DNA of 64,000 nucleotides, taken from Saccharopolyspora sp. SCSIO 74807 (GTDB lineage Bacteria > Actinomycetota > Actinomycetes > Mycobacteriales > Pseudonocardiaceae). Within the stretch, counting starts at the first letter, position 1. Every line of letters starts with the position of its first letter. The stretch spans positions 2,730,501-2,794,500 of the forward strand of contig NZ_CP146100.1 in NCBI RefSeq assembly GCF_037023755.1, given 5' to 3'. The notes beneath the pieces were generated by a model, which ran no database searches, was not told the DNA's origin, and was given only the letters and a program-made list of their open reading frames with translations. Made by a program: the position numbers and the translations under genes. Positions 7,742 through 26,838 of this stretch are shown piece by piece.

Positions 7742-9454
7742 TCAGGGTTGTGACGGCTCGCGGTTCTCCAGCGATGCCGCCGCTTCTTCGCAGAGCTCTC
7801 GGATTCGGCCGCGCGGGAGTTCGATCAGCGTGGCATCGAGCAGATCGGGGCGCCGTGCGGTGAGCTGGATGCGTTCCCGCGCCGCGTTCTTCGTCATCGG
7901 CCCTCGCGCCGAGTCGCGGCTGAACCGGACCAGCCCGTCGCGCCACACGTTGCCGACCTTGCCGTGCGCCCGGTCCAGCAACTGGCGGGTCAGCCGCGCG
8001 GAAGGAGTGCCTACCAGTGCGGCTTCGACGAGCGCGTAGCGGGAATCCGGCTCGTTGCGGCGGAATCGCAGCGCGTACTTGTCCGCGATGAGGTCGCCCA
8101 ACTCCCGCCGAGCCGTTTCGCCTGCGACGTCGGGGTGCTCGCCGGGCACCAGCAGGACGACTCGTTCGGCGTTGACCGCCAGCAAGACGCGCAGCAACCA
8201 CGGACCGGGGTCGGCGGAGAGGTCGGCTGCGACGGCGAACGAGGGCTGCCTGGTGATCGCGGCGGGCAGCCCGCTCGACATCAGCGTGCCGAGCCGCACG
8301 TAGCCGATGTTGCCGAACGAGGGCTGCCACCCGTCGGCCAGCACCGCGAGCGGCAGGTCCTGCTCGCCGGTGGCGGCCGTGCGCAGTGCTTCGATCGTCG
8401 GCTCGTCGAGTGCGGCGTTCGCTCCTTCCAGGGATTGCGCGCCATGGGTGTAGATGTTCGGTGCGGACGACCGCGCCGGGGCGTCGAACGCCTTCCACGT
8501 CCGCGAGGTCGGCCTGCACACGTACAGGTCGCTGGCGCTGCCCACGGCCTGGGCGCCAGCGTAGCTGTTGAAGTCCGGCAGGATCGCTTCGTAGACCAGG
8601 TGCAATTCCTGGATCGCCCGCTGGACCTTCAACCCCAGCGTCGGCTGCCGCTCCCCGAAGCCGTAGGCCAGCACCAGCCGTCCCAGCTCGCGGTCCCGGA
8701 GCGACGCCAGGCCGCGGGAGAGGAACAACGCCACGCCCTCGGGCGTGTAAGGCGGATCGGTGATCAGCAGGTCCGCGGATTCCTTGGCAGCGCTCGGGAA
8801 ACCGAACCGGAAATCCGCGAACAGGCAGCGGATGTTCAGCCCGCGCCGCCGCGCCTGCTCGTCGATGAACTCCAGGATCCGCTCGTCCACGTCGACGACG
8901 GTGATCGCGACACCGGTGTTCACCTGCGCCACCGCCAGCGACGTCAGGTCGTGATCGCCCGCGCAGAGCAACTGCGCACCGGACAGGTCGAACGTCGCGT
9001 CCAGCCACAACGCGCGCCGCACCACCGTTTCCGCGGTCGCCGAAACGTGGTCCAGCGCTTGCCGTCCCCGCGGAGCCGCCGCGATCAGGCGATCCATCTC
9101 GTCGATCGTCGATCGGTGCCGTTCCAGCGCGGGCGCCAGCGGATCGGCCAGCCGGACTCGCCGCAACTGCTGGTAGCCGAACCGCTCCCGGTAGCTTTCC
9201 GCGCGATCCGGACGCAGGCGGATGCCGTCTTCGCCGGTGATCAGGTCGGGGCCGACCGCTTCCAGCACCGCCTCGACGCCGCGGCGGGATACCGCGGAGA
9301 GCCGGACCAGCGACGCCAGCGTGTGCGGGCCTTCCGTCAGCAGCGCGATGATCTCGCGCAACGGACGCGCGTGCGCACCGGCCGCCGACACCAGCTGTTC
9401 CGCGTTCTCCAGTGCGTCGCGGGCAGGCGCTGAAGGCGTTTCGTCGGTGGGCAC
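7742..9454 (-). CDS. Branched-polyamine synthase (BpsA) family protein
   Basis: 570 aa. Residues from about 130 match the N4-bis(aminopropyl)spermidine synthase family: a Rossmann methyltransferase-like fold with GDHDLTS at 166-172 and the catalytic DPPYTPEG at 233-240. Family members transfer aminopropyl groups to spermidine in thermophilic archaea and bacteria. The role in mesophilic actinomycetes is not established. The N-terminal 70-90 residues look like a winged helix, and residues beyond about 380 form an extra C-terminal region, so it is longer than the archaeal enzyme. GTG 9454 has GGGAGA upstream; the open frame continues to 9643 but without codon-like composition. Confidence 0.75.
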   Translation of the reverse strand: MPTDETPSAPARDALENAEQLVSAAGAHARPLREIIALLTEGPHTLASLVRLSAVSRRGVEAVLEAVGPDLITGEDGIRLRPDRAESYRERFGYQQLRRVRLADPLAPALERHRSTIDEMDRLIAAAPRGRQALDHVSATAETVVRRALWLDATFDLSGAQLLCAGDHDLTSLAVAQVNTGVAITVVDVDERILEFIDEQARRRGLNIRCLFADFRFGFPSAAKESADLLITDPPYTPEGVALFLSRGLASLRDRELGRLVLAYGFGERQPTLGLKVQRAIQELHLVYEAILPDFNSYAGAQAVGSASDLYVCRPTSRTWKAFDAPARSSAPNIYTHGAQSLEGANAALDEPTIEALRTAATGEQDLPLAVLADGWQPSFGNIGYVRLGTLMSSGLPAAITRQPSFAVAADLSADPGPWLLRVLLAVNAERVVLLVPGEHPDVAGETARRELGDLIADKYALRFRRNEPDSRYALVEAALVGTPSARLTRQLLDRAHGKVGNVWRDGLVRFSRDSARGPMTKNAARERIQLTARRPDLLDATLIELPRGRIRELCEEAAASLENREPSQP

Positions 9455-9516
9455 GGGCGTACTCTCCCACAGCGCGAATGCGCTGGTGGACCCTGGTTGT
9501 GCTGCGGTTCGGGCGT

Positions 9517-9666
9517 TCAGTCGACCAGTGCGTAACCGTTCTCGAGACCTTCGCGGAGCCAGTTCTCGACGGTGCCCGTCCGATCGGTTACACGGGTTTC
9601 GCCGAGCAGCTCCGGATCGATGATTCCCGCTTCCACCGGGCACGGCGCGGCGGTCCCGCGGCTCAT
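9517..9666 (-). CDS. Small hypothetical protein (49 aa)
   Basis: An ATG frame between the carboxylesterase and the BpsA-like gene, same strand. It is acidic with a helical C-terminus (TVENWLREGLENGYALVD) and codon use like the neighbours. The ribosome site is poor (GAGG too close to ATG). It fills the gap between two same-strand genes, which favours a real gene, but I recognise no family. Confidence 0.4.
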   Translation of the reverse strand: MSRGTAAPCPVEAGIIDPELLGETRVTDRTGTVENWLREGLENGYALVD

Positions 9667-9695
9667 CGCCTCGACAATGGAAGGGCGGGCGGTGC

Positions 9696-11150
9696 TCAGC
9701 TCGGCACGTACCAGGCGGCGCGCTCGACCGGACGCGGATCGTTTACCACTGCGGATTCTTCGGCGAAGCGCATGGTGCGCCGTTGCGGGGGCACGTGCTG
9801 CGGCCATCCGGGATCTCCGTTCGTGGCGAAGGAAATCCACGCCGAGTGCATCGCCCGGGCCAGTTCCGCCGGTGCTTCCGGCTCGCCCAGCAGCTTCTCG
9901 GGGCCGTGCAGCTCGGGGTCGTGCGCGCGGTCGAACACGAACGGCAGCTCGACGCCGTGCGACGCGCCCAGCTGCCCCTCCAGCGCCGGGGACGGCCAGG
10001 CGAACTCGTAGCGGTAGGTCGCTGCCGGGTGCGCGGAGTGCGCGTCGGCGAGGCTGCGGCTGCCCGCGCCGAACACGCCGTCGCTCCAGATCGCCGAGCG
10101 GAGTTCGCCCGCGGAGGCGCCCGGTCGTTGCTCGCGGTAGGCGGCGATCAGCCGATCCGGGTCGGGATGTGCTTGCGCCGCAACCACTCGCACATCGTCC
10201 ATTGTGGACCTCTGGTCGGCCAGGTAGAGGTTGGCCTCCTCCTCGGTGGTGCCGACGATCAGATCGACGTCGCACCCGGCTCCGGTGGCGAGAACCTCCG
10301 CGGGCGGCCGTTCCAGCACCGGCCCGAGCCGGGAGATGCCGAGGAACGGATCAGCCCGCCCATGCACCCGAGGGTCCACCGGCGCCAAAGCGCCCAGCGC
10401 AGCCAGCAGGCGCTCATCCGGGATCTCCGGGATGTCGTCCCGCCGGACTCCGAGATCGCGGGCCAGCGCCGAGCTCAGGAGTTCTGCCTGCGCCGGGGCG
10501 AACGAGCCGGTACCCGAGCCGCTCTGGCTGATCGCGCGGCGGAAAAGCCCGCGTGCGGCCGGATCGGCGAGGGCCGCCGCGGTGATCATCGCGCCCGCGG
10601 ACTGACCGAACAGCGTCACGTTGTCCGGATCCCCGCCGAAGGCGCTGATCTCTTCCTGCACCCATTGCAGGGCCATCAGCACGTCGAGCAAACCGCGGTT
10701 GTCCGGCCGTCCCGGCACCGAGAGCCAGCCCGGCACGCCGAGGCGGTAGTTCAGCGTCACCAGCACCACGCCGTCGCGGGCGAACGATTCGCCGTCGTAG
10801 AGCGATCCCCGCGCCGACCCGGCCACGAAACCGCCGCCGTGCACGAAGACCATCACCGGTAGCCCGCGGGTCGCCGCGTCCGGGGTCCACACGTTCACCG
10901 TGAGGTGGTCGTCGCCGCGCACCCATCCCGGGCCCAGGAACGGGCGCATGTCGAGCCGGCCGAGCCGGTGCTCGGGCATCGGAGCCGTCGGACCCGGGCG
11001 GGTCGCGTCCCGCACTCCGTCCCAGCCGGGGTGCGGTTGCGGCGCGGCGAAACGGGCGGTGGGCGGCGCGGCGTAGGGGATCGCGGAGAACGCATGGCCG
11101 GAACCGCACCGCCGCCCGCGCACGGAGCCCTTCGACGTGCCCACGATCAT
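9696..11150 (-). CDS. Type B carboxylesterase
   Basis: 484 aa alpha/beta hydrolase of the carboxylesterase/acetylcholinesterase family. It has the oxyanion-hole motif HGGGF at 104-108, the nucleophile Ser184 in FGQSAG, an acidic stretch TTEEEANLYL that probably holds the acid, and His in SHGVELPF near residue 400. It should hydrolyse carboxylic esters; the substrate is unknown. No signal peptide is seen, so it is cytoplasmic. ATG 11150 has GGAGG at 11156-11160. The open frame runs on to 11915 but that extension is a shadow of the convergent membrane-protein gene. Confidence 0.9.
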   Translation of the reverse strand: MIVGTSKGSVRGRRCGSGHAFSAIPYAAPPTARFAAPQPHPGWDGVRDATRPGPTAPMPEHRLGRLDMRPFLGPGWVRGDDHLTVNVWTPDAATRGLPVMVFVHGGGFVAGSARGSLYDGESFARDGVVLVTLNYRLGVPGWLSVPGRPDNRGLLDVLMALQWVQEEISAFGGDPDNVTLFGQSAGAMITAAALADPAARGLFRRAISQSGSGTGSFAPAQAELLSSALARDLGVRRDDIPEIPDERLLAALGALAPVDPRVHGRADPFLGISRLGPVLERPPAEVLATGAGCDVDLIVGTTEEEANLYLADQRSTMDDVRVVAAQAHPDPDRLIAAYREQRPGASAGELRSAIWSDGVFGAGSRSLADAHSAHPAATYRYEFAWPSPALEGQLGASHGVELPFVFDRAHDPELHGPEKLLGEPEAPAELARAMHSAWISFATNGDPGWPQHVPPQRRTMRFAEESAVVNDPRPVERAAWYVPS

Positions 11151-11390
11151 GCTTGCCTCCGTTTCGGGCGGGGAAGGCCGCCCGGTTCGTCGCGGATCGG
11201 TCACCACACCGGCCGATGCACGTTGTGACCACTGTGGACGGTTAGGTGCGACGTCGCCCGCCGATGCTAGCGACGACGCTCCGAGTCGGTCGGAGAGCGG
11301 ATGCGCCTCGGTTCGGCGCGCCCGCTTCCGCGCACCGGATTTCGCGGAAACGCGGTTGCAGCGAGCGTTCGCGGGATAGCGTGCCGGATC

Positions 11391-11939
11391 GTGCAGCAAC
11401 CTCAGTGGCAGAACCAGCAACCGGGTGGAGCAGTGCCGCCGCAGCAGCAGACGCCGCAGCAGCAAGCTCTGGCCCAGCCGTCCGCCCGGCCCGTGCCCGT
11501 GCTCGTCGCGACCGTGTTCGGCGGCGCGATCGCGCTGGCCCTGTTCGGCCTGGCGGCCTACACCCTCATCGTCGGCTGGAGCGGCGCGAGCGGCGGCGGA
11601 GAGATCGTCGTGCTCCTGCTGGCCTTCATCATCGCGGGCGTCGGAGTGCTCTACGGCCTCGGCGCCGCGGCGCTGCTGCACTCGAAGTTCCCGAATCCCG
11701 CGCCGATGAAGCTGGCTGCGACGGGCACGGCGCTCATCGTCGCGTTCGGAGCCACCCGCGCGGCCCGCGTGCACACCGACGGTCCCGGTGTCGCCGGTCT
11801 CGTCGGTTGGGTGGTGATGGGATTGGTCGTGATCACGCTGCTGGTGCTGCTTTCCCGCCCATCGGTCAAGCAGTGGGTGCAGGCGACGCAAGCGCACTCC
11901 CGCAGCCTTGGTCACGTGCCCAAACGCGGACCGCGCTGA
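11391..11939 (+). CDS. Small membrane protein, Gln/Pro-rich N-terminus
   Basis: 182 aa from GTG 11391. The first 38 residues are rich in Gln and Pro (QQPQWQNQQPGG). Four hydrophobic helices follow at roughly 40-65, 75-100, 110-125 and 140-162, then a basic tail. No family is recognised. The start is uncertain because the ribosome site is weak. It converges with the helicase gene, with 13 nt between the stops. Confidence 0.7.
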   Translation: MQQPQWQNQQPGGAVPPQQQTPQQQALAQPSARPVPVLVATVFGGAIALALFGLAAYTLIVGWSGASGGGEIVVLLLAFIIAGVGVLYGLGAAALLHSKFPNPAPMKLAATGTALIVAFGATRAARVHTDGPGVAGLVGWVVMGLVVITLLVLLSRPSVKQWVQATQAHSRSLGHVPKRGPR

Positions 11940-11952
11940 GCGTTCCGCCGGG

Positions 11953-13929
11953 TCACTCGTCCTCCTGCTCCAACGCGCCGATCCAGAGGTGGTCCCTGGC
12001 GCGGGTCGCGGCGACGAGCAGCTGGCGCTGCAAGGTTTCCAACTCGTCCCGGTGGTAGGAGATGGGACGGCGCTCGTCGGGCAGGAACACCGCGCGGAAC
12101 TCGCTGCCCTTGGCCCGGTGCAGCGTGCCCACCCGGATGCCGCCGTCCGGCGAGCCGTCCCAGTCCTCCAGCCGGACCACCGGAAATCCGTTGCGGCGCA
12201 ACACTTCCACCCACTCCTGGGCGGCCGCGTTGGTGCGGGTGAGCAACGCGGTCTCCGCGGTCTCGTCGAGTTCGCGCAGCGCGCTCAGCACCGCCTCGTG
12301 CTGTTCGGTGCCGTTCCACCGCACGACCTGCCCGCCGGAGAGCACCGGCAGCGCCCTGCGGAGGTTCACGGCAGGCCCGCCGTCGAGGTCGTCGAAGCGG
12401 TTCACCGCGTCCAGTTCGGAAGCGGCCTCCACGATCGCCGCCCGGTTGCGGTAGTTGCGCCGAAGCACTTCGCCCCGCCCGCGCAGCGAGATCCCGGCCT
12501 CGGAAAGCCGCCAGCCACCGGCGAAGACCTGCTGCTGCCCGTCGCCAACAAGCAGCAGCTGGTTCGGCCCGGAGCCGCTGATCGCGTGCACCAGCCGCAG
12601 CCCGACCAGCGCGAGGTCCTGCACCTCGTCGACCACGACCGCGGAATAGTTGCGCGGCAACGGTTCCCGGCCCAGCTCGTCCAGCGCCCGGATCAGCACG
12701 TCGTTGTGGTCGTAGATCCCGCGCTCGCACAGCTCGCGCTCGTACTCGCAGTAGAATTCCCAGACGTGCGCCCGGAAACCGGTGCTTAGCCGACCGCCCC
12801 GGCCGCGCCGCGGCGCGGCCCGGTACGCCTCCAGGGTGCCCAGGCCGCGGCCCTTGATCACCCGGTCTATCTCGTCCTTCCAGTAGAGCCGGGACGGACG
12901 CGCGTTGGCCAGCGGACCGCGGCGCCCGGAACGCTCCCAGACCGCGGTGAACGCCGCCTCCACCGCGCGATCGTCCACAGTGGTCTCGCGGCCGCGTTCG
13001 GCGAGCAGTTCCCGCGCCCAGGAGTGCAGGTTGCGGAACTGGACCCGGTGCGCCACCTGCGGTGCCAGCGCGTGGAACTGCTCGCGCACCAGCTTCGGCA
13101 GGCCGCTCAAGTGCGTGGTGAACAGCAACTCGCCGGTGCTGCGCCGCGCCAGGTACGCCAGCCGGTGCAGCGCCAGCACCGACTTGCCGGTGCCCGCGGG
13201 ACCGGTGATCCGCGCCGGGCCGCTGTACTGCCTGCGCACCGCGCCGAGCTGCACGTCGTCCAGGAACAGCCGCCAATCCTGGAACGGGCCGCGCACCGCC
13301 GCGTCGAGCCGCTCCTGGCGCAGCTGCCGCACCTCGAACAACCCGGAGTCGCGGCCCGAGGAACCCAGCTGCCCGGCGCCGCGCGGCCGCGGGATGCGGT
13401 GCGGGTTCCAGGCGATCGGGGTCAGGTCGAACGTGCGGGTGTCCAGGTGCCGGGCCGCGGCCAGCGCGTCCGCCGGGTCCAGCGCGGTCTCCGCGGGCAG
13501 CAGCACCCGGTCCAATTCGGACTCGGTGATCGCCGTGTGCTCGCCGCGGTTGCCGGTCTCCGAATAGCCCGCCGGGTGCACCACGACCGCGCGCAGCGCC
13601 GCCTCGGTGAGCAGGCCGTGCGGCGTCGCCAGGCCCGCGAGCAGCTCCGCGGTCCACACGAACGCCGCGCGGGTCGCTTCCCAATGCGGCTCGTCGTCGC
13701 GCAGCAGCACCACCAGCACGCCGCCAGGGCCGACCAGCACCACGTCCGGCCGGTTGTCCGGGGTGTGCGGCGCGAACTGGTTCAGCAGCGTGTACCAGCC
13801 GGTGCCGTGTTCCACGGCGAACCGTTCGAGCACCCGCTTCTGCCACGTGGGCAACGGTGGGCGGGCACGCAATTGCGCATCGGCTTCGCGGCGCAGGCGC
13901 TCCCGGCCGTGATCGTGTGTCCCGGTCAC
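11953..13929 (-). CDS. UvrD/Rep-type helicase with degenerate NERD-like N-terminus, paralogue A
   Basis: 658 aa. Superfamily 1 helicase core with Walker A GPAGTGKS at 243-250, Walker B VVVDEVQD near 430, VGDGQQQ (motif III) and a C-terminal VAATRARDHLWIG (motif VI). Residues 58-80 look like the start of a NERD nuclease fold (RPDVVLVGPGGVLVVLLRD), but the catalytic E-x-K that should follow is LRD, so the nuclease is probably inactive. It is closely similar along its whole length to the protein at 42184-44157. GTG 13929 has GGGAG at a good distance. Cellular role unknown; DNA repair or defence are both possible. Confidence 0.85.
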   Translation of the reverse strand: MTGTHDHGRERLRREADAQLRARPPLPTWQKRVLERFAVEHGTGWYTLLNQFAPHTPDNRPDVVLVGPGGVLVVLLRDDEPHWEATRAAFVWTAELLAGLATPHGLLTEAALRAVVVHPAGYSETGNRGEHTAITESELDRVLLPAETALDPADALAAARHLDTRTFDLTPIAWNPHRIPRPRGAGQLGSSGRDSGLFEVRQLRQERLDAAVRGPFQDWRLFLDDVQLGAVRRQYSGPARITGPAGTGKSVLALHRLAYLARRSTGELLFTTHLSGLPKLVREQFHALAPQVAHRVQFRNLHSWARELLAERGRETTVDDRAVEAAFTAVWERSGRRGPLANARPSRLYWKDEIDRVIKGRGLGTLEAYRAAPRRGRGGRLSTGFRAHVWEFYCEYERELCERGIYDHNDVLIRALDELGREPLPRNYSAVVVDEVQDLALVGLRLVHAISGSGPNQLLLVGDGQQQVFAGGWRLSEAGISLRGRGEVLRRNYRNRAAIVEAASELDAVNRFDDLDGGPAVNLRRALPVLSGGQVVRWNGTEQHEAVLSALRELDETAETALLTRTNAAAQEWVEVLRRNGFPVVRLEDWDGSPDGGIRVGTLHRAKGSEFRAVFLPDERRPISYHRDELETLQRQLLVAATRARDHLWIGALEQEDE

Positions 13930-17549: not shown

Positions 17550-17654
17550 TCAAGTCGGCCCCCCGTGCTCGGGGCCTCGGCGGGCTGTTGTACGGTATGC
17601 AGGCACGCGGTGAACGGGACATCAAACCCCCGGGAAACCGCACCAACCGAACAA

Positions 17655-17730
17655 GGGGCTGTGGCGCAGCTGGTAGCGCACTTGACTGGCAGTCAAGGGG
17701 TCACGGGTTCGAATCCCGTCAGCTCCACCA
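17655..17730 (+). tRNA. tRNA-Ala (GGC)
   Basis: Complete cloverleaf. Acceptor GGGGCTG pairs with CAGCTCC, the anticodon loop is CTGGCAG (anticodon GGC), the T-arm is ACGGGTTCGAATCCCGT, and CCA is encoded at the 3' end, unlike the initiator tRNAs. It marks the left side of the halogenase region. Confidence 0.96.
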
Positions 17731-17749
17731 AGGGTTCTGACCCTGATCT

Positions 17750-17785
17750 GACCAGCGGTTTTGTTTGGCCGCTGGTCTTTTTGTC
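17750..17785 (+). terminator. Rho-independent terminator of tRNA-Ala
   Basis: A 9-bp stem GACCAGCGG (17750-17758) with CCGCTGGTC (17769-17777), followed by TTTTT. This is the clearest classical terminator in the window. Confidence 0.85.
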
Positions 17786-18029
17786 TTTCTAGCTAACCCA
17801 AGGTGCCGTGCTCAGGTCCTCAGCGTGGGCGTGGGCGGGGGTGGCCTTGTGCAGGTCCGGGCCTGGTCGGTGCGGTTGATCCCGGTGCCCGGCTTATTGG
17901 TGCCGGCGTCGGCAGCCCGCAGCGGACCGCGGGCCGCGCGACTTGGGTCCAGCAGCCCTCGTATGAACGCCACCCCGGCCCTGCCACGACTCGAGCAGCG
18001 CTCGCAGGACGGGCGCCGAGTCTGCGTCG

Positions 18030-18331
18030 GACGGTTGGCAGCATGCCTCCGTCGACAGAGATGGCGACGCCGGTGAGGTAGGAGGCGAGGAAGGCGATCA
18101 GTTCTGCGGTTCCTCCGGCTGCCCGGGGCGGCCGAGCGGGGCGGCAAGGCGCCGGTGGAACTCCTTGCGGATGGTGTCCAGGTCGCGGCCGGTGGTTTCG
18201 GCTTCGTGCAGCAGGCTGGCTTCGACGGCGCCGGTCTCGATGACGCCGGGCATGACCGCGGTCACGCGCACGCCGTGCGGGCCGCAGGCGTGGGCGAGGC
18301 TCTTGCTGTAGGAGTTCAGGGCGGCGTAGGG
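18030..18331 (-). pseudogene. Remnant of a short-chain dehydrogenase (SDR)
   Basis: Two adjoining frames on the minus strand spell the C-terminal 100 residues of an SDR. The first (18331-18110) has YAALNSYSKSLAHACGPHGV, then a conserved PG-type loop, and ends QPEE. The second (from 18107) continues AELIAFLASYLTGVAISVDGG. A single-base deletion at about 18108 puts a stop after PEEPQN. The N-terminal half with the nucleotide-binding site is missing, and about four residues seem lost before YLTG. It is therefore not functional. Confidence 0.75.
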
Positions 18332-18509
18332 ACGCCGCACGATCGCGGTCCTTCGGCGCAGACCGACTTGGCCGCCGAGACGGAAAAGGCGCCGCTCCAC
18401 TGGAGTCGAACAAGACGTTGGGCGAGAAATTCTCCGGACGGCCGAGCCGTTGTCGAGAATCCCGACTTGGCTGCGGGCGTCGAGATCGATCCGCCCCGGT
18501 TGTTTCCAG

Positions 18510-18570
18510 GAATGCGGAAATGTTGCGGCGCGACGCGCAATTGTTCGGTGGTTCGACGGATTCCGCATTC
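18510..18570. promoter_or_regulatory. 10-bp inverted repeat upstream of the halogenase cluster
   Basis: GAATGCGGAA (18510-18519) and TTCCGCATTC (18561-18570) are perfect inverted copies separated by 41 bp, about 80 bp before the adenylation gene. Lower-GC sequence lies between. They could be paired operator half-sites or the ends of a lost element. The rest of 18332-18648 shows no gene. Confidence 0.5.
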
Positions 18571-18648
18571 ACGCTGTTGGTGGTGTGCGGTCTGGTAGGG
18601 CGCGGGTAGCTTGACGAGTTGTACCGGGGGTCGAAATTTGGGGGTGCG

Positions 18649-20154
18649 GTGCTTCATCGGAACGCGAGTGGGCGCGCAGTGATCGAAAGGTTCACCTCGA
18701 TCGCCGCCAGGTTCTCGGACGCGGTCGCCGTACGGGATTCGGGTGGCGCGGAACTCACCTACAACGAGCTGTACGAGAACGCTCAGGACCTGGCCGACGA
18801 ACTGCTTCGCGCGGACGTCGATCCAGCGGGGCTGATCGCGGTGGACATTCCTTCCGGCATCGATTCCACTATCGCGTTCGTCGCGGTCTGGCTGCTCGGC
18901 GGGGCTTACCTTCCGCTGGCTCGTTCCGGTCCTTCCGCGCGGAACGAGCGGATCATCGCGGATGCCGCTCCGCAGGCCGTCCTGACCCTGGCCGGGGACG
19001 ACTCGGCTGCACCGCTGCTGTGCGGGAAGTACGCGCTCGAGCTGCGACCGGGCTCCCGACGGCCGACGGCGGGTACGGCCTACGTCATCTACACCTCGGG
19101 GACCACGGGCGTGCCGAAAGGTGTCCCGGTTTCGCAGCGGAACCTGACCGCGTTGTTCGATGCGGTCGCGCCCTGGTTCGACGTCGGGTTGGCCGACCGG
19201 TGGCTGGTGTTCCACTCGCCCGCTTTCGACTTTTCGGTGTGGGAATTGTGGGGCGCGTTGAGCACCGGAGGAACCGCGGTGATCCCGGACGGCTGGACCG
19301 TCCGGGATCCGCACCGGTGCGCGGAACTGATCCGGCGCGAGGGGATATCCGTGCTGAGCCAGACACCGACGGCTTTCCGGGAGCTGTCGCCGGAACTGTG
19401 CGCGGGAAATCCCGGGAGCCTGCGAATCCGGTACGTGGTGTTCGGCGGGGAGCGGCTGCAAGCGGGCCTGCTCGCGAAGTTCCGGGAAATCTCGCCGGCA
19501 GTGCTGTACAACATGTACGGAATCACGGAGGTCACCGTGCACGCCACGATCCGCCGGATATCCCTGAACGACATCGAATGCAACGGGCAGAACATCGGCG
19601 AGCCGCTGCCAGGATTCGCCGCCCGCGTCGTCGATGAGCACGACCAGCCGGTAACGCCGGGCAACGCGGGAGAGCTGCTGCTGTCCGGGCCGCAGGTGGT
19701 GGCGGGCTACCTCGGCCGGCCGGAGCTCACCGCGGAGAAGTTCACCGCCGCGTCCGGACGGGTGTTCTACCGCAGCGGCGACCTTGTGCGGTGGGAAGAC
19801 GACGGGCTGGTGTACGTGGGCCGCAACGACGACCAGGTGAAGATTCGCGGGCACCGCATCGAACTGGGTGAGGTCGAGCGCGCGCTGCAAACCGTCCCGG
19901 AGGTCTCCGCGGCGGTCTGCGTCGCGCTGCGCGGGGACGGCGGAACCCGGCTCGCGTGCGGATACCTCACCGCAGGCAGCACCGAACTGCCCCGCAGAAG
20001 GTGGCGGCAGGCCCTCGCGGACCGGCTGCCCGCCTACATGATCCCGGAAGCGTTCACCCGCCTGGAAACGATCCCGCGAACAGACAACGGAAAGATCGAC
20101 CGCGCAGCACTCGAGCAGATGTTCCGGAGGGCGCCGTGCAAGCCGATGCCATGA
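18649..20154 (+). CDS. Stand-alone NRPS adenylation domain, probable threonine activator
   Basis: 501 aa from GTG 18649 (TTG 18619 would add 10). All adenylation core motifs are present: A3 YVIYTSGTTGVPKG, A4 FDFSVWELWG, A5 NMYGITEVT, A7 YRSGDLVRW, A8 GRNDDQVKIRGHRIELGEVE and A10 NGKIDRAAL with its lysine. Aligning by eye to GrsA positions gives the pocket code D-F-W-S-V-G-M-V-H-K, two changes from the threonine code DFWNIGMVHK. It should adenylate L-Thr and load it on the carrier encoded next. There is no condensation domain. GGGGGT lies just before the GTG. Confidence 0.88.
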   Translation: MLHRNASGRAVIERFTSIAARFSDAVAVRDSGGAELTYNELYENAQDLADELLRADVDPAGLIAVDIPSGIDSTIAFVAVWLLGGAYLPLARSGPSARNERIIADAAPQAVLTLAGDDSAAPLLCGKYALELRPGSRRPTAGTAYVIYTSGTTGVPKGVPVSQRNLTALFDAVAPWFDVGLADRWLVFHSPAFDFSVWELWGALSTGGTAVIPDGWTVRDPHRCAELIRREGISVLSQTPTAFRELSPELCAGNPGSLRIRYVVFGGERLQAGLLAKFREISPAVLYNMYGITEVTVHATIRRISLNDIECNGQNIGEPLPGFAARVVDEHDQPVTPGNAGELLLSGPQVVAGYLGRPELTAEKFTAASGRVFYRSGDLVRWEDDGLVYVGRNDDQVKIRGHRIELGEVERALQTVPEVSAAVCVALRGDGGTRLACGYLTAGSTELPRRRWRQALADRLPAYMIPEAFTRLETIPRTDNGKIDRAALEQMFRRAPCKPMP

Positions 20155-20399
20155 AGTCCGATGCCGCGAAAATCGAACGATCGGTCGTGGAGTGGCTCCG
20201 CGCCGAACTGGATGATCCCGAAATCACCGCCTCCGACAATTTCCTGGACGTCGGTGCGCATTCGCTCACCTTCGCCAAGCTCAACAGGTTCCTGAGCGAT
20301 TCCTTCGGGGTCGCCCTGGAAGCGCGGGAAACCTACGAGGCCCCGCTGCACGAGGCCGTCGCAAACCGACGTTCCGTCGATCGACCAGCGCACCGGTAG
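20136..20399 (+). CDS. Free-standing peptidyl carrier (T) protein
   Basis: 87 aa. A single carrier domain with the phosphopantetheine serine in NFLDVGAHSLTFAKL, a variant of the usual GGHS. GTG 20136 is placed 5 nt after CGGAGG and overlaps the end of the adenylation gene by 19 nt; ATG 20151 (ATGA overlap) is an alternative. It is the likely platform that holds the activated amino acid during halogenation, like the T domain of SyrB1. Confidence 0.88.
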   Translation: MQADAMKSDAAKIERSVVEWLRAELDDPEITASDNFLDVGAHSLTFAKLNRFLSDSFGVALEARETYEAPLHEAVANRRSVDRPAHR

Positions 20400-20408
20400 G
20401 AGATTGCC

Positions 20409-21368
20409 GTGACCGAGAACCTCGACATCGACCACTCGCTGTCCGCTGCGGACGAGGAGTTCTTCCAGCGGAACGGCTACATCGGCCCGATCACCGTCTA
20501 CACCCCCGAAGAAATGGACGAGATGTGGCGGACGGTCCGCAGGCAGACGCTGGACCGATCGCACGCGGCCTACCCGGAAGACGCCAGTTCCGGCGGAACG
20601 AACATCGCGAACTACGACCGCCACCTGGACATCGACCTGCTCGCGCAGCACGTCTGCAACGCGCGCATCGTCGATCGCGTCGCCTCGGTGCTGGGGCCGG
20701 ACATCCTCTGCTGGCGCACCGAGTTCTTCCCCAAGTACCCGGGCGACGAGGGAACCGACTGGCACCAGGCGGACACCTTCGCCAACGCGAGCGGAAAGCC
20801 GCAGATCCTCTGGCCCGGCGAGTCCGAGGACGACTTCGGGGCGGGCACGATCACGGTGTGGACCGCGTTCACCGAGTCGACCCGGGAGAACGGCTGCCTG
20901 CAGATCATCCCGGGTTCCCAGAACAAGATGAACTACGACGAGACGAAGCGCATGGACTACAGCGAGTCCCGCATCAATGCCGAGCAGAAGGACGGGATCG
21001 CGCGGGGGTTCTTCGGATACGATTACCGGCAGCTGCAGATCGATCCGGACTGGACGCCCAACGAATCCGACGCCTTCTCGCTGGTGATGGAGAAGGGCCA
21101 GTGCGTCATCTTCTGGTCGACGCTGATGCACGCTTCGCTGCCGAACACGAGCGAGGGCAAGAACTATCGCATGGGCTTCGCCTCCCGATATGTGCCGACC
21201 AAGGTCCGCGTCTATCCGGACACCGACTCGGTGCAGGAGTACGGCGGGAGCATTCCGCTGGAGAACTACGGGGCCGTCGTGGCGCGCGGCGAAGACCGCT
21301 ACGGGCACAACCGGATCGCCACCCGGACGCTGCGCGGGACGCCGTTCCGGACTCGAACCGCTTCTTGA
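20409..21368 (+). CDS. SyrB2-like non-haem Fe(II)/2-oxoglutarate halogenase
   Basis: 319 aa. Close to SyrB2, the enzyme that chlorinates carrier-bound L-Thr in syringomycin synthesis. Shared stretches include [42 protein letters not shown] and [14 protein letters not shown]. Iron ligands are His119 and His241. The position that is Asp/Glu in hydroxylases is Ala121 (H119-Q-A121), which leaves a site for chloride: the halogenase signature. Arg254 should bind 2-oxoglutarate. GTG start with AGGAG 6 nt upstream, 9 nt after the carrier gene. Expected reaction: Thr-S-carrier to 4-chloro-Thr-S-carrier. Confidence 0.95.
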
Positions 21369-21432
21369 CGCGGCCCGGCCCGGTGCTGCGAAGCGCCGCG
21401 CGACCGTTAGACCATACGGTACGATCGGTGAA

Positions 21433-22131
21433 ATGAACGATCCCGTGGTTCATCAACTCGCCGTGTACCTGGACGACACCTACGCGACCGAGGTCAGCAC
21501 CACCGTCATCGCCGGCGCGCTGCACGACGAGCAGCGCTGTCTCGCCGTCCGGGACAACATCGTGCATCCCCAGGGCGGCGGCCAGCCGGCGGACATCGCG
21601 ACGCTGAACGGGGCAGCGGCCTCGGTCGTCCGGGTGCAGCACGACCAGCCGCTGGTCGCGCTCGTGCCCGAGCTGCCTGCCGGGGAGCTGCCCGCGGTGG
21701 GCGAGCGGGTTTCCGTCGCGGTGGACCGGGCCGCCCGGCTCGAGCACGCCGCCCTGCACACCGCGGGTCACCTGGTGGATGCGGCCGTGCGCGCGCGGGA
21801 TTACCGGCACATCGTCAGCAATCACTTTCCCGGCCAGGCCCGCATCGAGTTCGAGGCGGGCACGGCATTGGAAGACGCCGAGGAGTTCGTCGCCACGGTG
21901 CAGGCCGATGTGCACGCCGTGATCGACAAGGACCTGCCGGTCGAGGCGTACTGGGCGGACGGGCGCCGCTACGTGCGGATCGGCGAGTTCTCGCTGGACG
22001 AGTGCGCCGGCACGCACGTTTCGCACCTGGACGAACTCGCCGATCTGGTGGTCCGCTCGGCCAAGGTGAAGAAGGGACGGCTCAAGGTTGGCTACTCCGC
22101 GCGCTACCGCGAAGGGGCGGACCGGCGGTAA
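21433..22131 (+). CDS. AlaX-like trans-editing tRNA deacylase
   Basis: 232 aa. Related to the editing domain of alanyl- and threonyl-tRNA synthetases. Zinc ligands are H109-x3-H113 (HTAGH) and C191-x3-H195 (CAGTH), and the glycine-rich HPQGGGQPADI is at 45-55. The size fits the AlaX-M type. In the cluster it most likely removes the halogenated amino acid from wrongly charged tRNA and so protects the producer, comparable to FthB, the fluorothreonyl-tRNA deacylase of Streptomyces cattleya. General Ala/Ser editing is the alternative. The 64-nt upstream gap contains ACCGT/ACGGT arms and TACGAT, a possible own promoter. Confidence 0.85.
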   Translation: MNDPVVHQLAVYLDDTYATEVSTTVIAGALHDEQRCLAVRDNIVHPQGGGQPADIATLNGAAASVVRVQHDQPLVALVPELPAGELPAVGERVSVAVDRAARLEHAALHTAGHLVDAAVRARDYRHIVSNHFPGQARIEFEAGTALEDAEEFVATVQADVHAVIDKDLPVEAYWADGRRYVRIGEFSLDECAGTHVSHLDELADLVVRSAKVKKGRLKVGYSARYREGADRR

Positions 22132-23056
22132 CGAAGCGTGGGCGGCCCGGCTCGGCCGTTCCGCATCGGCCGGGGATCTCGCGGTCGTCGGCGTCGCGGC
22201 GGTGTGGGGGTCGTCCTACGCCGTGATGCAGGCCGTCAACGCCACCGGCCTGTCCTTCCCCAACTTCCTCGCGCTGCGGTTCGCCGCGGCCGCGTTGCCG
22301 CTGCTGGTCTACGCGGTTCTCGCGCGGGTCCGTTTGAATCGGCGCGAACTGCGCCACGGGCTGCTCTACGGCGCGCTGCTGTTCACGATCCTGCTGCTGG
22401 AGACGTCCGGGGTGGCCTACACCAGCGCTGCCAACGCGGGGTTCCTGATCACCCTGTCGGTGATCCTGGTGCCGCTCTACAGCAGGGTGTTCGGCGGAGT
22501 GCGGCAGCGGCCCGCGATCTACGCGCTATCGGCCGTAGCGCTGCTCGGGTGCGCAGCGTTGACGCTGGGGAGCTCCGGGGCGCCGTTCGCGGTGCGGCCG
22601 GGCGATGGGCTGATCCTGGCGGCGGCTCTGGTGCGCGCTTACCAGATCTTCTCGTTCGGGCGGACCTCGAGCCATCGCGACTTCAACGTGCTGTCGGTGA
22701 CGCTGGTCGAGGTCGTCGTGGTCGCCGCGCTGAGCCTTCTGGTGTCGCCGCTGTTCGGTCCGCTGCTGACCGAGCAGGTTTCCGCGATCACGCCGGGGGT
22801 GTGGGTGCTGATCGCGTACCTCGGCGTGCTGGGCACCGCGTTCGCGTTCGCGGCGCAGCTGTTCGCGGCTCGCCGGACCAGCGCCACGCGGGTCGCCATC
22901 ATCATGTCCACCGAGCCGGTCTTCGCGGCGTTCTTCGCGATCGTCCTGCGCGGGGAGGGGCTGATGCTCATGCAGATCGTGGGCGGGGTGCTGATCGTCG
23001 TCGCGGCCGCGTTCGGGCGCCTGCTGGAGAACCGCGCGCAGGAGGCCGCGGCGTGA
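22088..23056 (+). CDS. EamA/DMT-family transporter, probable exporter
   Basis: 322 aa with ten predicted membrane helices in two EamA halves (GVAAVWGSSYAVMQ at the first helix, TEPVFAAFFAIVLRGE near the ninth). Members export amino acids and metabolites. The only in-frame start upstream of helix 1 is TTG 22088, overlapping the deacylase gene by 44 nt. Its place between the deacylase and thioesterase suggests export of the pathway product. Confidence 0.85.
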   Translation: MATPRATAKGRTGGNEAWAARLGRSASAGDLAVVGVAAVWGSSYAVMQAVNATGLSFPNFLALRFAAAALPLLVYAVLARVRLNRRELRHGLLYGALLFTILLLETSGVAYTSAANAGFLITLSVILVPLYSRVFGGVRQRPAIYALSAVALLGCAALTLGSSGAPFAVRPGDGLILAAALVRAYQIFSFGRTSSHRDFNVLSVTLVEVVVVAALSLLVSPLFGPLLTEQVSAITPGVWVLIAYLGVLGTAFAFAAQLFAARRTSATRVAIIMSTEPVFAAFFAIVLRGEGLMLMQIVGGVLIVVAAAFGRLLENRAQEAAA

Positions 23057-23742
23057 CGCCGGCCGGTCGGCTTCCGGCTGTCGCGCTCATCCCACCTGCC
23101 TGCTGCGGCGCGGGCTACTTCCGCCGACTCCGCCGGGCGCTGGGGGCCGGGGTGGAGATCTGCGGAGTCGAGTTGCCCGGCCGCGGACGCCGGTACCGGG
23201 AACCCGCGCTGACCTCGGCTGAACGGGCTCTCCGGGACGTGCAAGCGCAGGTTCCGCACTCGGTGGGGGTGGTTTACGGCGAGAGCCTGGGCGCCTACAT
23301 CGGCCTGGCGCTGCTCGCCGAGCGCGGCGTGGGGACCTGCCTGATCGCCGCGTCCAATCCGGCTCCGCGCACTCGCGACGACATCGATCTCGCGGGCATC
23401 GATTCGCTCGACGGCGCCGCCGCGATCCTGTCCCGGCTCGGCGGCGGTCCGCCTGCGGAGCTGGGGCAGGACCCCGCCGTCGCCGCGCAGGCGCACGCGC
23501 TGATCCGGAGTGATCTGCTGCTTTCGCAGGGATTCATCGAGCTGACCCGGCGGCTGGTGGTGGACGGGGACGTTCGCGTGCTCGCCGCTTCCGAGGACGG
23601 CGGGATGCAGCAGCCGGAGGCCTGGCAGCGGCACACCCGGGGTTCGTGCAGCACGGTTCGGCTGACGGGACCGCATCTGCTCTCCGGCGCGAATCCACGC
23701 GGTGTCGCCGATGCCGTCCTCGCAGTGCTGCGGGAACGGTGA
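23053..23742 (+). CDS. Type II thioesterase
   Basis: 229 aa alpha/beta hydrolase. Nucleophile Ser78 in GESLG, a GRGRR motif after strand 2 (LPGRGRRYREP) and a C-terminal GPHLL with the catalytic His are typical of stand-alone thioesterases of NRPS clusters. Here, with no condensation domain, it probably releases the finished amino acid from the carrier. GTG 23053 overlaps the exporter stop (GTGA). Confidence 0.88.
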   Translation: MTPAGRLPAVALIPPACCGAGYFRRLRRALGAGVEICGVELPGRGRRYREPALTSAERALRDVQAQVPHSVGVVYGESLGAYIGLALLAERGVGTCLIAASNPAPRTRDDIDLAGIDSLDGAAAILSRLGGGPPAELGQDPAVAAQAHALIRSDLLLSQGFIELTRRLVVDGDVRVLAASEDGGMQQPEAWQRHTRGSCSTVRLTGPHLLSGANPRGVADAVLAVLRER

Positions 23743-23745
23743 CGG

Positions 23746-24336
23746 TCATTGCCGCGCGGCGCTGTCCACGTGCAACGGCGAGGCGATCACGACGGTGATG
23801 TCGGCCGGGTCCGCACCGGTCGAGTACGTGTGCGGCTGATCGCCGGGGAAGGACAGGCAATCACCGGGAGCGAGATCCGCGAGATCGGCGTTCGCGCCCG
23901 CGCGGAGCTCACCCGAGGCCACGATGAGGCTTTCGATCGTTCCGGGCGCGTGCGGCGCACCCGTCGTTTCGTGTTCGGCCGGGATCCGGAGCCGCCAGAT
24001 CTCGACCGAGTAGCTGCCGTGCAGGCGCCGCAGCAGTTCGCGCGTGGGGCCGTCCGGATCGCCGGGCGTGCCGGGCACTTTCACGGACGTTTCGGTGCTT
24101 TGGAAGCTCACGAGGTCGGCCAGCGGCAGCGCCAGCGCCACCGCCAGCGCGTCCAAGGTGCCGATCGTGGGGTTGCCGCTGCCGGCTTCGATGCTGGAAA
24201 GCGCCGCTTTGCTGATGCCTGCGCGACGGGCCAGCTCGGCACTGGTGAGGCCGCGGGCGCTGCGGATGCGCTTGACGTGCGCGCCGATCGCGCGGCCCGT
24301 CGAGCGCGACACCGGATCGCCTTGGGCCTGCGTCAC
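23746..24336 (-). CDS. XRE-family regulator with cupin sensor domain
   Basis: 196 aa. Residues 14-70 form a helix-turn-helix (LTSAELARRAGISKAALSSIE) and the C-terminal 80 residues a cupin (PGDCLSFPGDQPHTYS). Such regulators bind a small ligand in the cupin barrel. GTG 24336 has GGAGGG upstream. It is convergent with the thioesterase, 3 nt apart, so it may be the cluster's own regulator, although the gene content does not prove this. Confidence 0.9.
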   Translation of the reverse strand: MTQAQGDPVSRSTGRAIGAHVKRIRSARGLTSAELARRAGISKAALSSIEAGSGNPTIGTLDALAVALALPLADLVSFQSTETSVKVPGTPGDPDGPTRELLRRLHGSYSVEIWRLRIPAEHETTGAPHAPGTIESLIVASGELRAGANADLADLAPGDCLSFPGDQPHTYSTGADPADITVVIASPLHVDSAARQ

Positions 24337-24430
24337 AATCCCTCCCGCGCACCGTGCTCGCAATGCAGTTCGACGCGCGGAGCGTAGCAACCGGTCCCGG
24401 CGCACACCGGAAACCGCCGCGTCGACGGGT

Positions 24431-24664
24431 TCATGGCCTGCGGCGGGGATGCGTGCAGCAGCACCAGCCCGATCGCGTCGTGCCCGGCTGCGCCGACCGC
24501 GGTGGGAGCAATGTGCCGTGCAGCGACCAGTTCTCGCCGTCCCGGCTCCAGTGCAGGTAGTCGCGCTGCCACGGCCGCCGCGCGACCAGCCGCCGTTCGT
24601 GCAGCTCGTGCTGGGTTTCCCACGCTCTTCCGATGCCGTGCAGCGCGCGCTGGAGCAACATCAT
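24431..24664 (-). CDS. Small hypothetical protein (77 aa)
   Basis: ATG 24664 with GGGAGG six nt upstream and an AT-rich promoter-like stretch behind it. Residues 1-55 are rich in Trp, Arg and His (WETQHELHERRLVARRPW, DYLHWSRDG), then a Pro/Arg/Cys-rich tail. I do not recognise the family. The good ribosome site and the palindrome upstream make a real gene likely. Confidence 0.6.
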   Translation of the reverse strand: MMLLQRALHGIGRAWETQHELHERRLVARRPWQRDYLHWSRDGENWSLHGTLLPPRSAQPGTTRSGWCCCTHPRRRP

Positions 24665-24675
24665 CGAGCCCTCCC

Positions 24676-24697
24676 TGTGTTCTTTAAAACGAACACA
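24676..24697. promoter_or_regulatory. Palindromic operator-like site
   Basis: TGTGTTC-TTTAAAAC-GAACACA, 7-bp arms around an 8-bp AT-rich centre, between a possible -10 (TATATC on the minus strand, near 24706) and the start of the 77-aa gene. A typical position for a repressor site. The arm order (GTTC outside, GAAC inside) is opposite to the LexA box. Confidence 0.5.
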
Positions 24698-24798
24698 CAG
24701 GAAGATATAACAGCCGATGTGCCGATGAAAGTCGCCCGGTCGCAGGCAACCACGTTCTTTCCGCGGCTCACGCGCACGCGCCGGCTCGGCGGCGGGGA

Positions 24799-25653
24799 TC
24801 AGCGGGAGGCGGCCTGCTCGACCAGCTCGGCGGCGTATCCGGCCACCGTCTCCGGGCGGCTGCGCGGCAGCCAGTGCCCGCCGGGAACCCGGTGAACGCG
24901 CAGGTCCGGCACCCACTCCGCGATGCCGGTCTGCACCGGCGGGTGCACGAACCGGTCCGCGCTCGGCGCGATCACCTGCACCGGGACGTCGGTGCGCCGC
25001 GGCTCGGGACGGGCGAAGCGGCGGAGCATGTTCGCCCGGTACAGAGCCAAGCCGTGGATCGCGTCCGGCAGCTCGGGCGCGCTCGCCGACCGGTCGAGCG
25101 CGCGGACGAGGCGTTGGGTGAGGCCGCTGCGCCAAGCCAGCTCCGGCAGCTTGGGAATCTGGAAGAAGCCGATGTAGCCGGAGGAAGCCAGCTGCGCCAC
25201 CAGCTCGCGCAGCGCGGGCAGCCCGGCCCGCACGCGGGACCGCATCCACCGCGCGGCGTGGTCCAGGCACGGGCCGGAGATCGAGGTGTACGAGGCGACC
25301 CGTCCGCGCAGGTCGTCACCGGTGATCGCGTGCCAGGTCTGGATCGAGCCCCAGTCGTGCGCGAGCAGGTGCACCGGATGGTCCGGGCTGACGGCGTCCA
25401 GCACCGCCGTCAGGTCCTCCGCGAGCCGGTCGAGCAGGTAGGCGCTGTCCCGATGCGGCTTGTCCGACTCGCCCGCGCCGCGCACGTCGTAGGTGACGAC
25501 GTGGAACCGGTCTTGCAGCGACTGCACGACGCCGTCCCACAGCGAGCGGTTGTCCGGATAGCCGTGCACGCACACCAGCGTCGGCGCGGTTCGCGGGCCG
25601 GATTCGACGACGGCCAGCGACGTACCGTCCCGGGAAACGACCCGCCGAACCAT
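24799..25653 (-). CDS. Alpha/beta hydrolase, epoxide-hydrolase-like
   Basis: 284 aa. Oxyanion motif HGYPDNRSLW near 29-38, nucleophile Asp in AHDWGS near 100 and His in PGGHWLP near the C-terminus. Asp rather than Ser as nucleophile fits epoxide hydrolases or dehalogenases, and the sequence resembles the hydrolase half of mycobacterial EphD. ATG 25653 has AGGAGG 7 nt upstream. A GTTAC-N5-GTAAC palindrome sits in the promoter. Confidence 0.85.
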   Translation of the reverse strand: MVRRVVSRDGTSLAVVESGPRTAPTLVCVHGYPDNRSLWDGVVQSLQDRFHVVTYDVRGAGESDKPHRDSAYLLDRLAEDLTAVLDAVSPDHPVHLLAHDWGSIQTWHAITGDDLRGRVASYTSISGPCLDHAARWMRSRVRAGLPALRELVAQLASSGYIGFFQIPKLPELAWRSGLTQRLVRALDRSASAPELPDAIHGLALYRANMLRRFARPEPRRTDVPVQVIAPSADRFVHPPVQTGIAEWVPDLRVHRVPGGHWLPRSRPETVAGYAAELVEQAASR

Positions 25654-25666
25654 CGCAAAACCTCCT

Positions 25667-25681
25667 GTTACCGGAAGTAAC
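25667..25681. promoter_or_regulatory. GTTAC-N5-GTAAC palindrome
   Basis: Perfect 5-bp arms around CGGAA, 14 nt before the hydrolase start. It resembles the TAC-N5-GTA sites at 52194-52235 before the SDR gene, so both may be read by the same TetR-type repressor. Confidence 0.5.
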
Positions 25682-25785
25682 GGCTACTGGAGGTGGAACT
25701 ATGCAGCGTCCGGCGCAGCGCTGTCAACGCGCTGCCGCGATCGTGCGGGGCGACGGCTGTGCCCCGCCGCAGCAGTGCGGCCGGC

Positions 25786-26838
25786 TCAGCCGAGCAGCGG
25801 CCGCACCTTCTGGCCGAAGTCGTGCACGCCCTTCTCGAACTCGTCGAAGGTGAACATCACCCCGCGCACGCCCGGCATCGAGGTCACCTTGTCGAGCTGG
25901 CGGGCGATCGTCTCGTGCGAGCCGACCAGGGTGCCCATGTTGAGGTTGATCGCGCCTTCCGGCAGGTTGATCGTCTTCGCCGTGCCGCCCTCCGGCGCGG
26001 AGGCGTCCTTGGCGCCCTCGTCGGCCATGTAGCCGAGAGCTTCCAGGTCCGCGCCGGCGTGGTAGGAGCGCCACTTCGCCCAGGCTTCTTCGTCGGTCTC
26101 GGCCATGATGAGCATGAACAGCGGCAGCGAACCCACGTCCCGGCCGGTCCGCTCGGCCGCGGCCGCGAGCCGCTGCACCGGTTCCGCGTAGTTCTCCGGG
26201 GCGTTGACGCCCGGGGTGAGCACGAAGTTGTAGTCGCCGACCTCCGCGGTCATCCGCATCCCGCGATCCGACTGGCCCGCGCAGACCACGTCCACGTGCC
26301 CGGACGGGCGCGGTTCCAGGCGGCAGTCGCTCATGCCGAAGAACTCACCGTCCAAGTTGGACACTCCGGTGGTCCAGAGTTCGCGCAGCACCCGGACGTA
26401 TTCGGTCGAGTAGTCGTAGCGCCGCTCGAAGTACTCGTCGCCCGGCCACAGGCCCATCTGGTCGTACTCGTTCTTGGCCCAGCCGGAGACGATGTTGACC
26501 CCGAAGCGGCCGGGCGCGATCGAGTCGATCGTCGTGGCCATCCGCGCCACCATCGCGGGCGGCAGCGTGAGCACCGCCGTCGAGGCGTAGAGCCGGATCC
26601 GCTCGGTCACCGCGGCCAGCCCGGCCATCATCGTGAACGATTCCAGGTTGTGGTCCCAGAACTCCGTCCTGCCGCCGAAACCGCGCAGCTTGATCATGGA
26701 CAGCGCGAACGCGAACCCCTGTCGCTCCGCCTCCAGCGCCACGTTCTTGTTCAGCTCGAACGACGGCATGTACTGCGGTGCGTTCTCCGAGATCAGCCAG
26801 CCGTTGTTCCCGATCGGCAGGAAAACGCCGAAATCCAT
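25786..26838 (-). CDS. rutA: RutA-like pyrimidine monooxygenase
   Basis: 350 aa luciferase-like flavin monooxygenase. It shares long stretches with E. coli RutA, which opens the uracil ring between N3 and C4 with FMNH2 and oxygen: [12 protein letters not shown]-like start, [34 protein letters not shown] and RYDY-TEYV. The length also fits. No rutB-G partners are next to it, and the flavin reductase is not in the window, so the substrate could be different here. It ends 132 bp before the hydrolase gene on the same strand. Confidence 0.88.

Follow-up and report, generated by a model that had tools for sequence, protein, structure and literature searches.

Gene layout and predicted pathway

In a 64,000-nucleotide stretch of Saccharopolyspora sp. 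SCSIO 74807 (contig NZ_CP146100.1, positions 2,730,501 to 2,794,500; hereafter the window), we analyzed an operon of six plus-strand genes at 18649-23742, which very probably makes and excretes free L-4-chlorothreonine, as judged from its sequence. The genes encode an adenylation (A) protein, a carrier (T), a SyrB2-type halogenase (Hal), an AlaX-type tRNA deacylase, an EamA exporter and a thioesterase (TE). All six are joined by overlaps or short gaps, and an XRE-cupin regulator converges on them from the minus strand. This layout had been proposed in an earlier note made from the DNA letters alone, and both its coordinates and its domain calls hold. The gene order, the domains and motifs, the recurrence of the unit and the absence of a nearby condensation domain were directly seen; a free 4-chlorothreonine pathway with its own immunity is the best explanation, which the predicted functions support. 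The features are as follows.

18649..20154, plus strand: stand-alone A protein; GTG start, AMP-binding domain, code DFWSVGMVH (Thr)
20151..20399, plus strand: stand-alone T protein; PP-binding domain, serine site DVGAHSL, 4-base overlap with A
20409..21368, plus strand: SyrB2-type Fe/2-oxoglutarate halogenase; WHQADTF, 9-base gap after T
21433..22131, plus strand: AlaX-M-fold protein, likely a trans-acting aminoacyl-tRNA deacylase; 64-base gap after the halogenase
22088..23056, plus strand: EamA transporter; TTG start, 44-base overlap with the deacylase
23053..23742, plus strand: TE / alpha-beta hydrolase; Thioesterase domain, serine motif GESLG, 4-base overlap with EamA
23746..24336, minus strand: XRE-cupin regulator; helix-turn-helix (HTH) domain and sub-cut-off cupin match, convergent, 3-base gap to TE

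An in-frame TTG lies at 18619, upstream of the GTG start of the A protein; the GTG start of the regulator was read off the sequence, and a longer frame begins at 24405. The same seven genes were found with 99-100% identity in Saccharopolyspora sp. HNM0986 (L013).

In the proposed mechanism, the A protein would adenylate threonine and load it onto the carrier, as its code suggests, and the halogenase would then chlorinate C4 of the threonyl-S-carrier with Fe, 2-oxoglutarate, O2 and chloride, as expected from its family and active site. The TE would hydrolyse the chlorinated product off the carrier, and the EamA protein would export 4-chlorothreonine by analogy with FthC. From its context and fold, the AlaX-type deacylase is predicted to remove 4-chlorothreonyl from tRNA-Thr and thereby spare the producer's proteins. 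The XRE-cupin protein is probably a regulator that tunes the operon, the least secure of these assignments.

Predicted activation, chlorination and release

The A code was read at positions assigned by sequence motifs. The window code DFWSVGMVH points to threonine as the activated amino acid, as the earlier note had proposed; DFWNIGMVH or DFWNVGMVH was read in 12 of 12 other loci carrying the cassette, and Thr1 and CytC1 read DFWNVGMVH and DFWNIGGVF, respectively. The halogenase scored 455.5 bits against the TIGR01762 chlorinating-enzyme profile (cut-off 226.3) and only 27.4 bits against ectoine hydroxylase. Among solved homologues it aligned along its length to SyrB2 (2fct, 448 bits) and CytC3 (438 bits). 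In SyrB2-type halogenases the iron ligand Asp/Glu is replaced by a small residue, and this HxA iron site is retained in the window protein (WHQADTF, aligned to SyrB2), suggesting that chlorination of threonine is its function. The carrier keeps its serine (DVGAHSL) and the TE is of the serine type (GESLG), consistent with release of the product as a free amino acid. A search for condensation domains returned eight matches genome-wide and none in the cluster, the nearest starting at 2,969,204, about 215 kb from the cluster end at about 2,754,242, so that the claim that the cluster holds no peptide assembly line stands. One phosphopantetheinyl transferase match was found in the genome, away from the cluster.

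Relation to Thr1 and other known systems

The A-T-halogenase-deacylase-EamA-TE order recurs unchanged at locus L028 of Streptomyces sp. CB02923, where the A protein scored 949 bits to 5n9w, the solved Thr1, and 646 to CytC1. A second locus with this order (L108, genome G388) gave 732 and 621 bits, respectively. According to an excerpt of PMC11267755, 5N9X (same sequence entry as 5n9w) is the A domain for 4-chlorothreonine in Streptomyces sp. OH-5093. A close relative of Thr1, the A protein of this 4-chlorothreonine producer, is therefore found within the six-gene order, which supports the free 4-chlorothreonine reading and lowers its novelty: the operon belongs to an already known pathway type. 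Like the window, the thr pathway of OH-5093 (Thr1, Thr3) combines a Thr-specific stand-alone A protein with a SyrB2-type halogenase; the match in gene order is drawn through the CB02923 relative. The window A protein scored 357 bits to solved Thr1, and the cluster is thus a distant member of the thr type.

Two other systems share parts of this chemistry. Syringomycin biosynthesis (SyrB1/SyrB2) likewise uses SyrB2-type chlorination, and the Pseudomonas loci read have a Thr-type code; unlike it, the window has no condensation line nearby, separate A and T proteins, and immunity genes within the unit. CytC1/CytC3, to which this second comparison is confined, also pair a stand-alone A protein with a halogenase and yield a free chlorinated amino acid (dichloroaminobutyrate; PMC6864650), whereas the window has a Thr code and carries a deacylase and an exporter in the unit.

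Recurrence of the six-gene unit

Named genomes were searched with the halogenase, and of 228 relatives the best 80 were taken as loci; leaving out L013, 79 remained. In 12 of the 79 loci the deacylase lay within 300 bases of the halogenase on the same strand, and in 11 EamA lay within 1500 bases; 11 loci had both and none had EamA alone. This co-occurrence exceeds chance (Fisher p 1.3e-12, without correction for kinship among the loci). The 12 deacylase loci come from Halomonas, Vibrio ruber, Streptomyces sp. CB02923, Prodigiosinella, Kosakonia, Photorhabdus, Pluralibacter, Salinisphaera, Pseudomonas (two) and Xenorhabdus (two).

An automatic rule that looked for A, deacylase, EamA and TE within fixed distances, without requiring T, scored the unit as complete in 8 of the 79 loci (L025, L029-L035; T was missed by tblastn in L035). 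The CB02923 locus is a ninth complete unit, its TE being recognised by Pfam. As for other loci, the contig ends shortly after EamA in L026, A and TE match only in part in L036, and in L038 there is no EamA match and the A match is 4.7 kb away. A complete unit also occurs on a Salmonella plasmid classed as conjugative (L094:6172-13302), together with a convergent regulator and a phosphopantetheinyl transferase; a further protein there matches LysE below the cut-off. Of the 86 loci examined, 8 have a relative of the regulator nearby, which in 7 is encoded on the opposite strand.

At E <= 1e-15, a limit that would miss more diverged forms, 5 of 394 genomes sampled from the class have the deacylase, counting that of the window itself. 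Of the other four, L108 holds the complete unit, L110 has the deacylase about 2.8 kb from a WelO5-like halogenase, and L111 has none of these partners within 20 kb. The fourth, at L109 (about 9265-12291), is a decayed relative of the cassette: its halogenase is broken, A and T were not found, and deacylase, EamA and TE are kept. No description of the six-gene unit or of an AlaX-type halothreonine deacylase was found in the literature listings and passages covered, the FthB and Thr1 structure papers being outside that scope.

Exporter and deacylase

Over 289 aa the exporter shares 48% identity with the likely FthC of Streptomyces cattleya, that is, the EamA protein encoded on pSCATT beside a serine hydroxymethyltransferase (SHMT) plus aldolase protein and a tRNA_edit protein. 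Excerpts of PMC7408626 describe FthB as a fluorothreonyl-tRNA deacylase and FthC as an exporter. As predicted for the window, a deacylase and an EamA exporter adjoin a halothreonine pathway in S. cattleya, and the FthC-like exporter argues for export of the product, as had been claimed.

The deacylase is the least known part of the operon. It scored 69.3 bits against the AlaXM equivalog NF040865, far under the cut-off of 300. Its only Pfam match was tRNA_SAD (20.3 bits, below its cut-off), with no PF04073 tRNA_edit, and its AlaX-M fold carries an HxxxH plus CxxxH site (HTAGH, CAGTH). This trans-editing fold fits the earlier note's proposal that the product is kept out of host protein, with a deacylase of AlaX type and not of FthB type. 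Homology to FthB was considered and rejected, the pSCATT protein in the FthB position being PF04073 with no similarity to the window deacylase (best alignment 14.2 bits). An AlaX-like S. cattleya protein (L093) was likewise rejected as FthB; it lies elsewhere on pSCATT, and SHMT or aldolase domains were found in none of the 12 frames scanned around it, some of which are surely not genes.

Relatives of the deacylase were observed next to or near WelO5/BesD-like carrier-independent halogenases (L097:6721-10026, L110:9776-14047), and the same pairing occurs on the Caballeronia sp. NK8 plasmid NZ_AP024326.1 at about 923248-924712; in Embleya an MFS transporter follows. In a Klebsiella record (L098:5896-6525), a protein sharing 39% identity with the window deacylase over 183 aa stands alone, next to a LysR regulator gene and without any halogenase match in 12.5 kb. 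We consider it an evenly balanced question whether a distinct AlaX branch forms a dedicated immunity family that trans-edits halogenated amino acids (here 4-chlorothreonine) off tRNA, having arisen independently of FthB and moving between phyla with both carrier-bound SyrB2-type and WelO5/BesD-like halogenases.

A second threonyl-tRNA synthetase (G000 contig 1, 4872766-4873974; L115:6701-8029), which leaves the N-terminal portion of the model unmatched, was considered as a further immunity factor. It lies about 2.1 Mb away, and second copies also occur in 5 of 30 other genomes (E <= 1e-60), so an immunity role is not claimed; none of the four congeners among these 30 relatives had a second copy.

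Points against the favoured reading and alternative explanations

Several observations weigh against a free 4-chlorothreonine pathway with tRNA-based immunity. The window A code differs from that of Thr1 at one position (S for N), although S at this position is also present in other Thr-like codes read. The window halogenase, carrier and TE are closest to those of T-Hal-TE clusters: in a 93-row halogenase tree the window stands beside 11 T-Hal-TE loci (97/88), and in tblastn its TE is 46-53% identical to theirs versus 22-33% to those of the cassettes, one 57-residue piece of a cassette TE reaching 39%. The A code was non-Thr in all six loci of the T-Hal-TE clade with a nearby A domain read. 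As to the deacylase, the known AlaX substrate is Ser/Gly-tRNA-Ala and not Thr-tRNA, as stated in an excerpt of PMC11295145, and loss of fthB left secreted fluorothreonine unchanged in S. cattleya according to PMC7408626, so that a deacylase knock-out may show little.

The deacylase may instead have the ordinary AlaX role of clearing Ser-tRNA-Ala, its place in the operon being incidental and immunity resting on export. We regard this as unlikely, given its weak score against the AlaXM equivalog, its rarity in the class at the limit used, its place beside the halogenase in 12 of the 79 named loci, and the related deacylases near WelO5-like halogenases.

Alternatively, T, halogenase and TE could make a chlorothreonyl unit and pass it in trans to a nonribosomal peptide synthetase (NRPS) elsewhere, with the TE editing or transferring it and free 4-chlorothreonine at most a by-product. 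The kinship with T-Hal-TE clusters, several of which have an A-domain gene in the locus, keeps this reading alive at a low probability; a gene of NRPS size with a Thr code lies nearby in both L022 and L023, condensation domains exist elsewhere in the genome, and largimycin starts from a 4-Cl-threonyl-serine dipeptide according to an excerpt of PMC13200230. However, the distance to the nearest condensation domain, the serine GESLG site of the TE, and the operon's own Thr A protein, together with a deacylase and an exporter for which an intermediate kept on its carrier would have no use, make it quite improbable.

That an amino acid other than threonine is chlorinated, or that chlorination occurs twice (for example on an aminobutyrate, as with CytC), is very improbable. 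In its favour, the A-T-Hal-TE relatives L037, L043 and L051 have codes ending in GVF, as in CytC1, and the next solved homologues include CytC1 and CytC3. Against it, the window code retains MVH, as in Thr1, and the exporter resembles FthC, whose cargo is reported to be a 4-halothreonine.

History of the operon and its surroundings

In the 93-row tree, 11 gammaproteobacterial cassette rows form a clade (100/95) that does not include the window, and L025 stands beside this clade without a firm place; the CB02923 halogenase occupies a third place, apart from both. In a 35-row tree the window halogenase had no firm place in its neighbourhood. The T-Hal-TE loci showed no match to the deacylase or EamA, and either these clusters lost both genes or the window unit is a mosaic; the deacylase tree was too weak to separate the two. 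As a separate observation, ten T-Hal-TE loci on chromosomes and plasmids (L014-L021, L095, L096) have an Na/H antiporter-like gene or match in 9 of 10 (L096 being the query itself) and a non-Thr code of the DVFHVAAYA type in 6.

The G+C content of the cluster is 0.687 versus 0.702 for the window, which tells little on a genomic-island origin. A search of 17640-26000 for direct repeats of the tRNA-Ala gene at 17655-17730, as the mark of an island, found none. Of the cluster-flanking proteins, one had no match in four congeners (the first search lacked a positive control) and the other at most 41% identity, and hence no empty site could be read. Promoter-like and terminator-like signals were about as numerous as in shuffled sequence. 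PADLOC matched the regulator only with generic HTH models and gave no match for the deacylase. A short-chain dehydrogenase remnant (18098-18568, minus strand), whose end is in another frame, lies between the tRNA-Ala gene and the cluster.

Significance

An excerpt of PMC13101137 states that serine hydroxymethyltransferase is inactivated by 4-chlorothreonine. The cassette suggests that the whole route and its immunity form one compact unit, found in Actinomycetota, in several gammaproteobacterial families and on a plasmid, and a halogenase followed by a deacylase and EamA offers a handle for genome mining. The deacylase would represent a testable second answer, built on another protein fold, to the difficulty that FthB deals with in S. 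cattleya.
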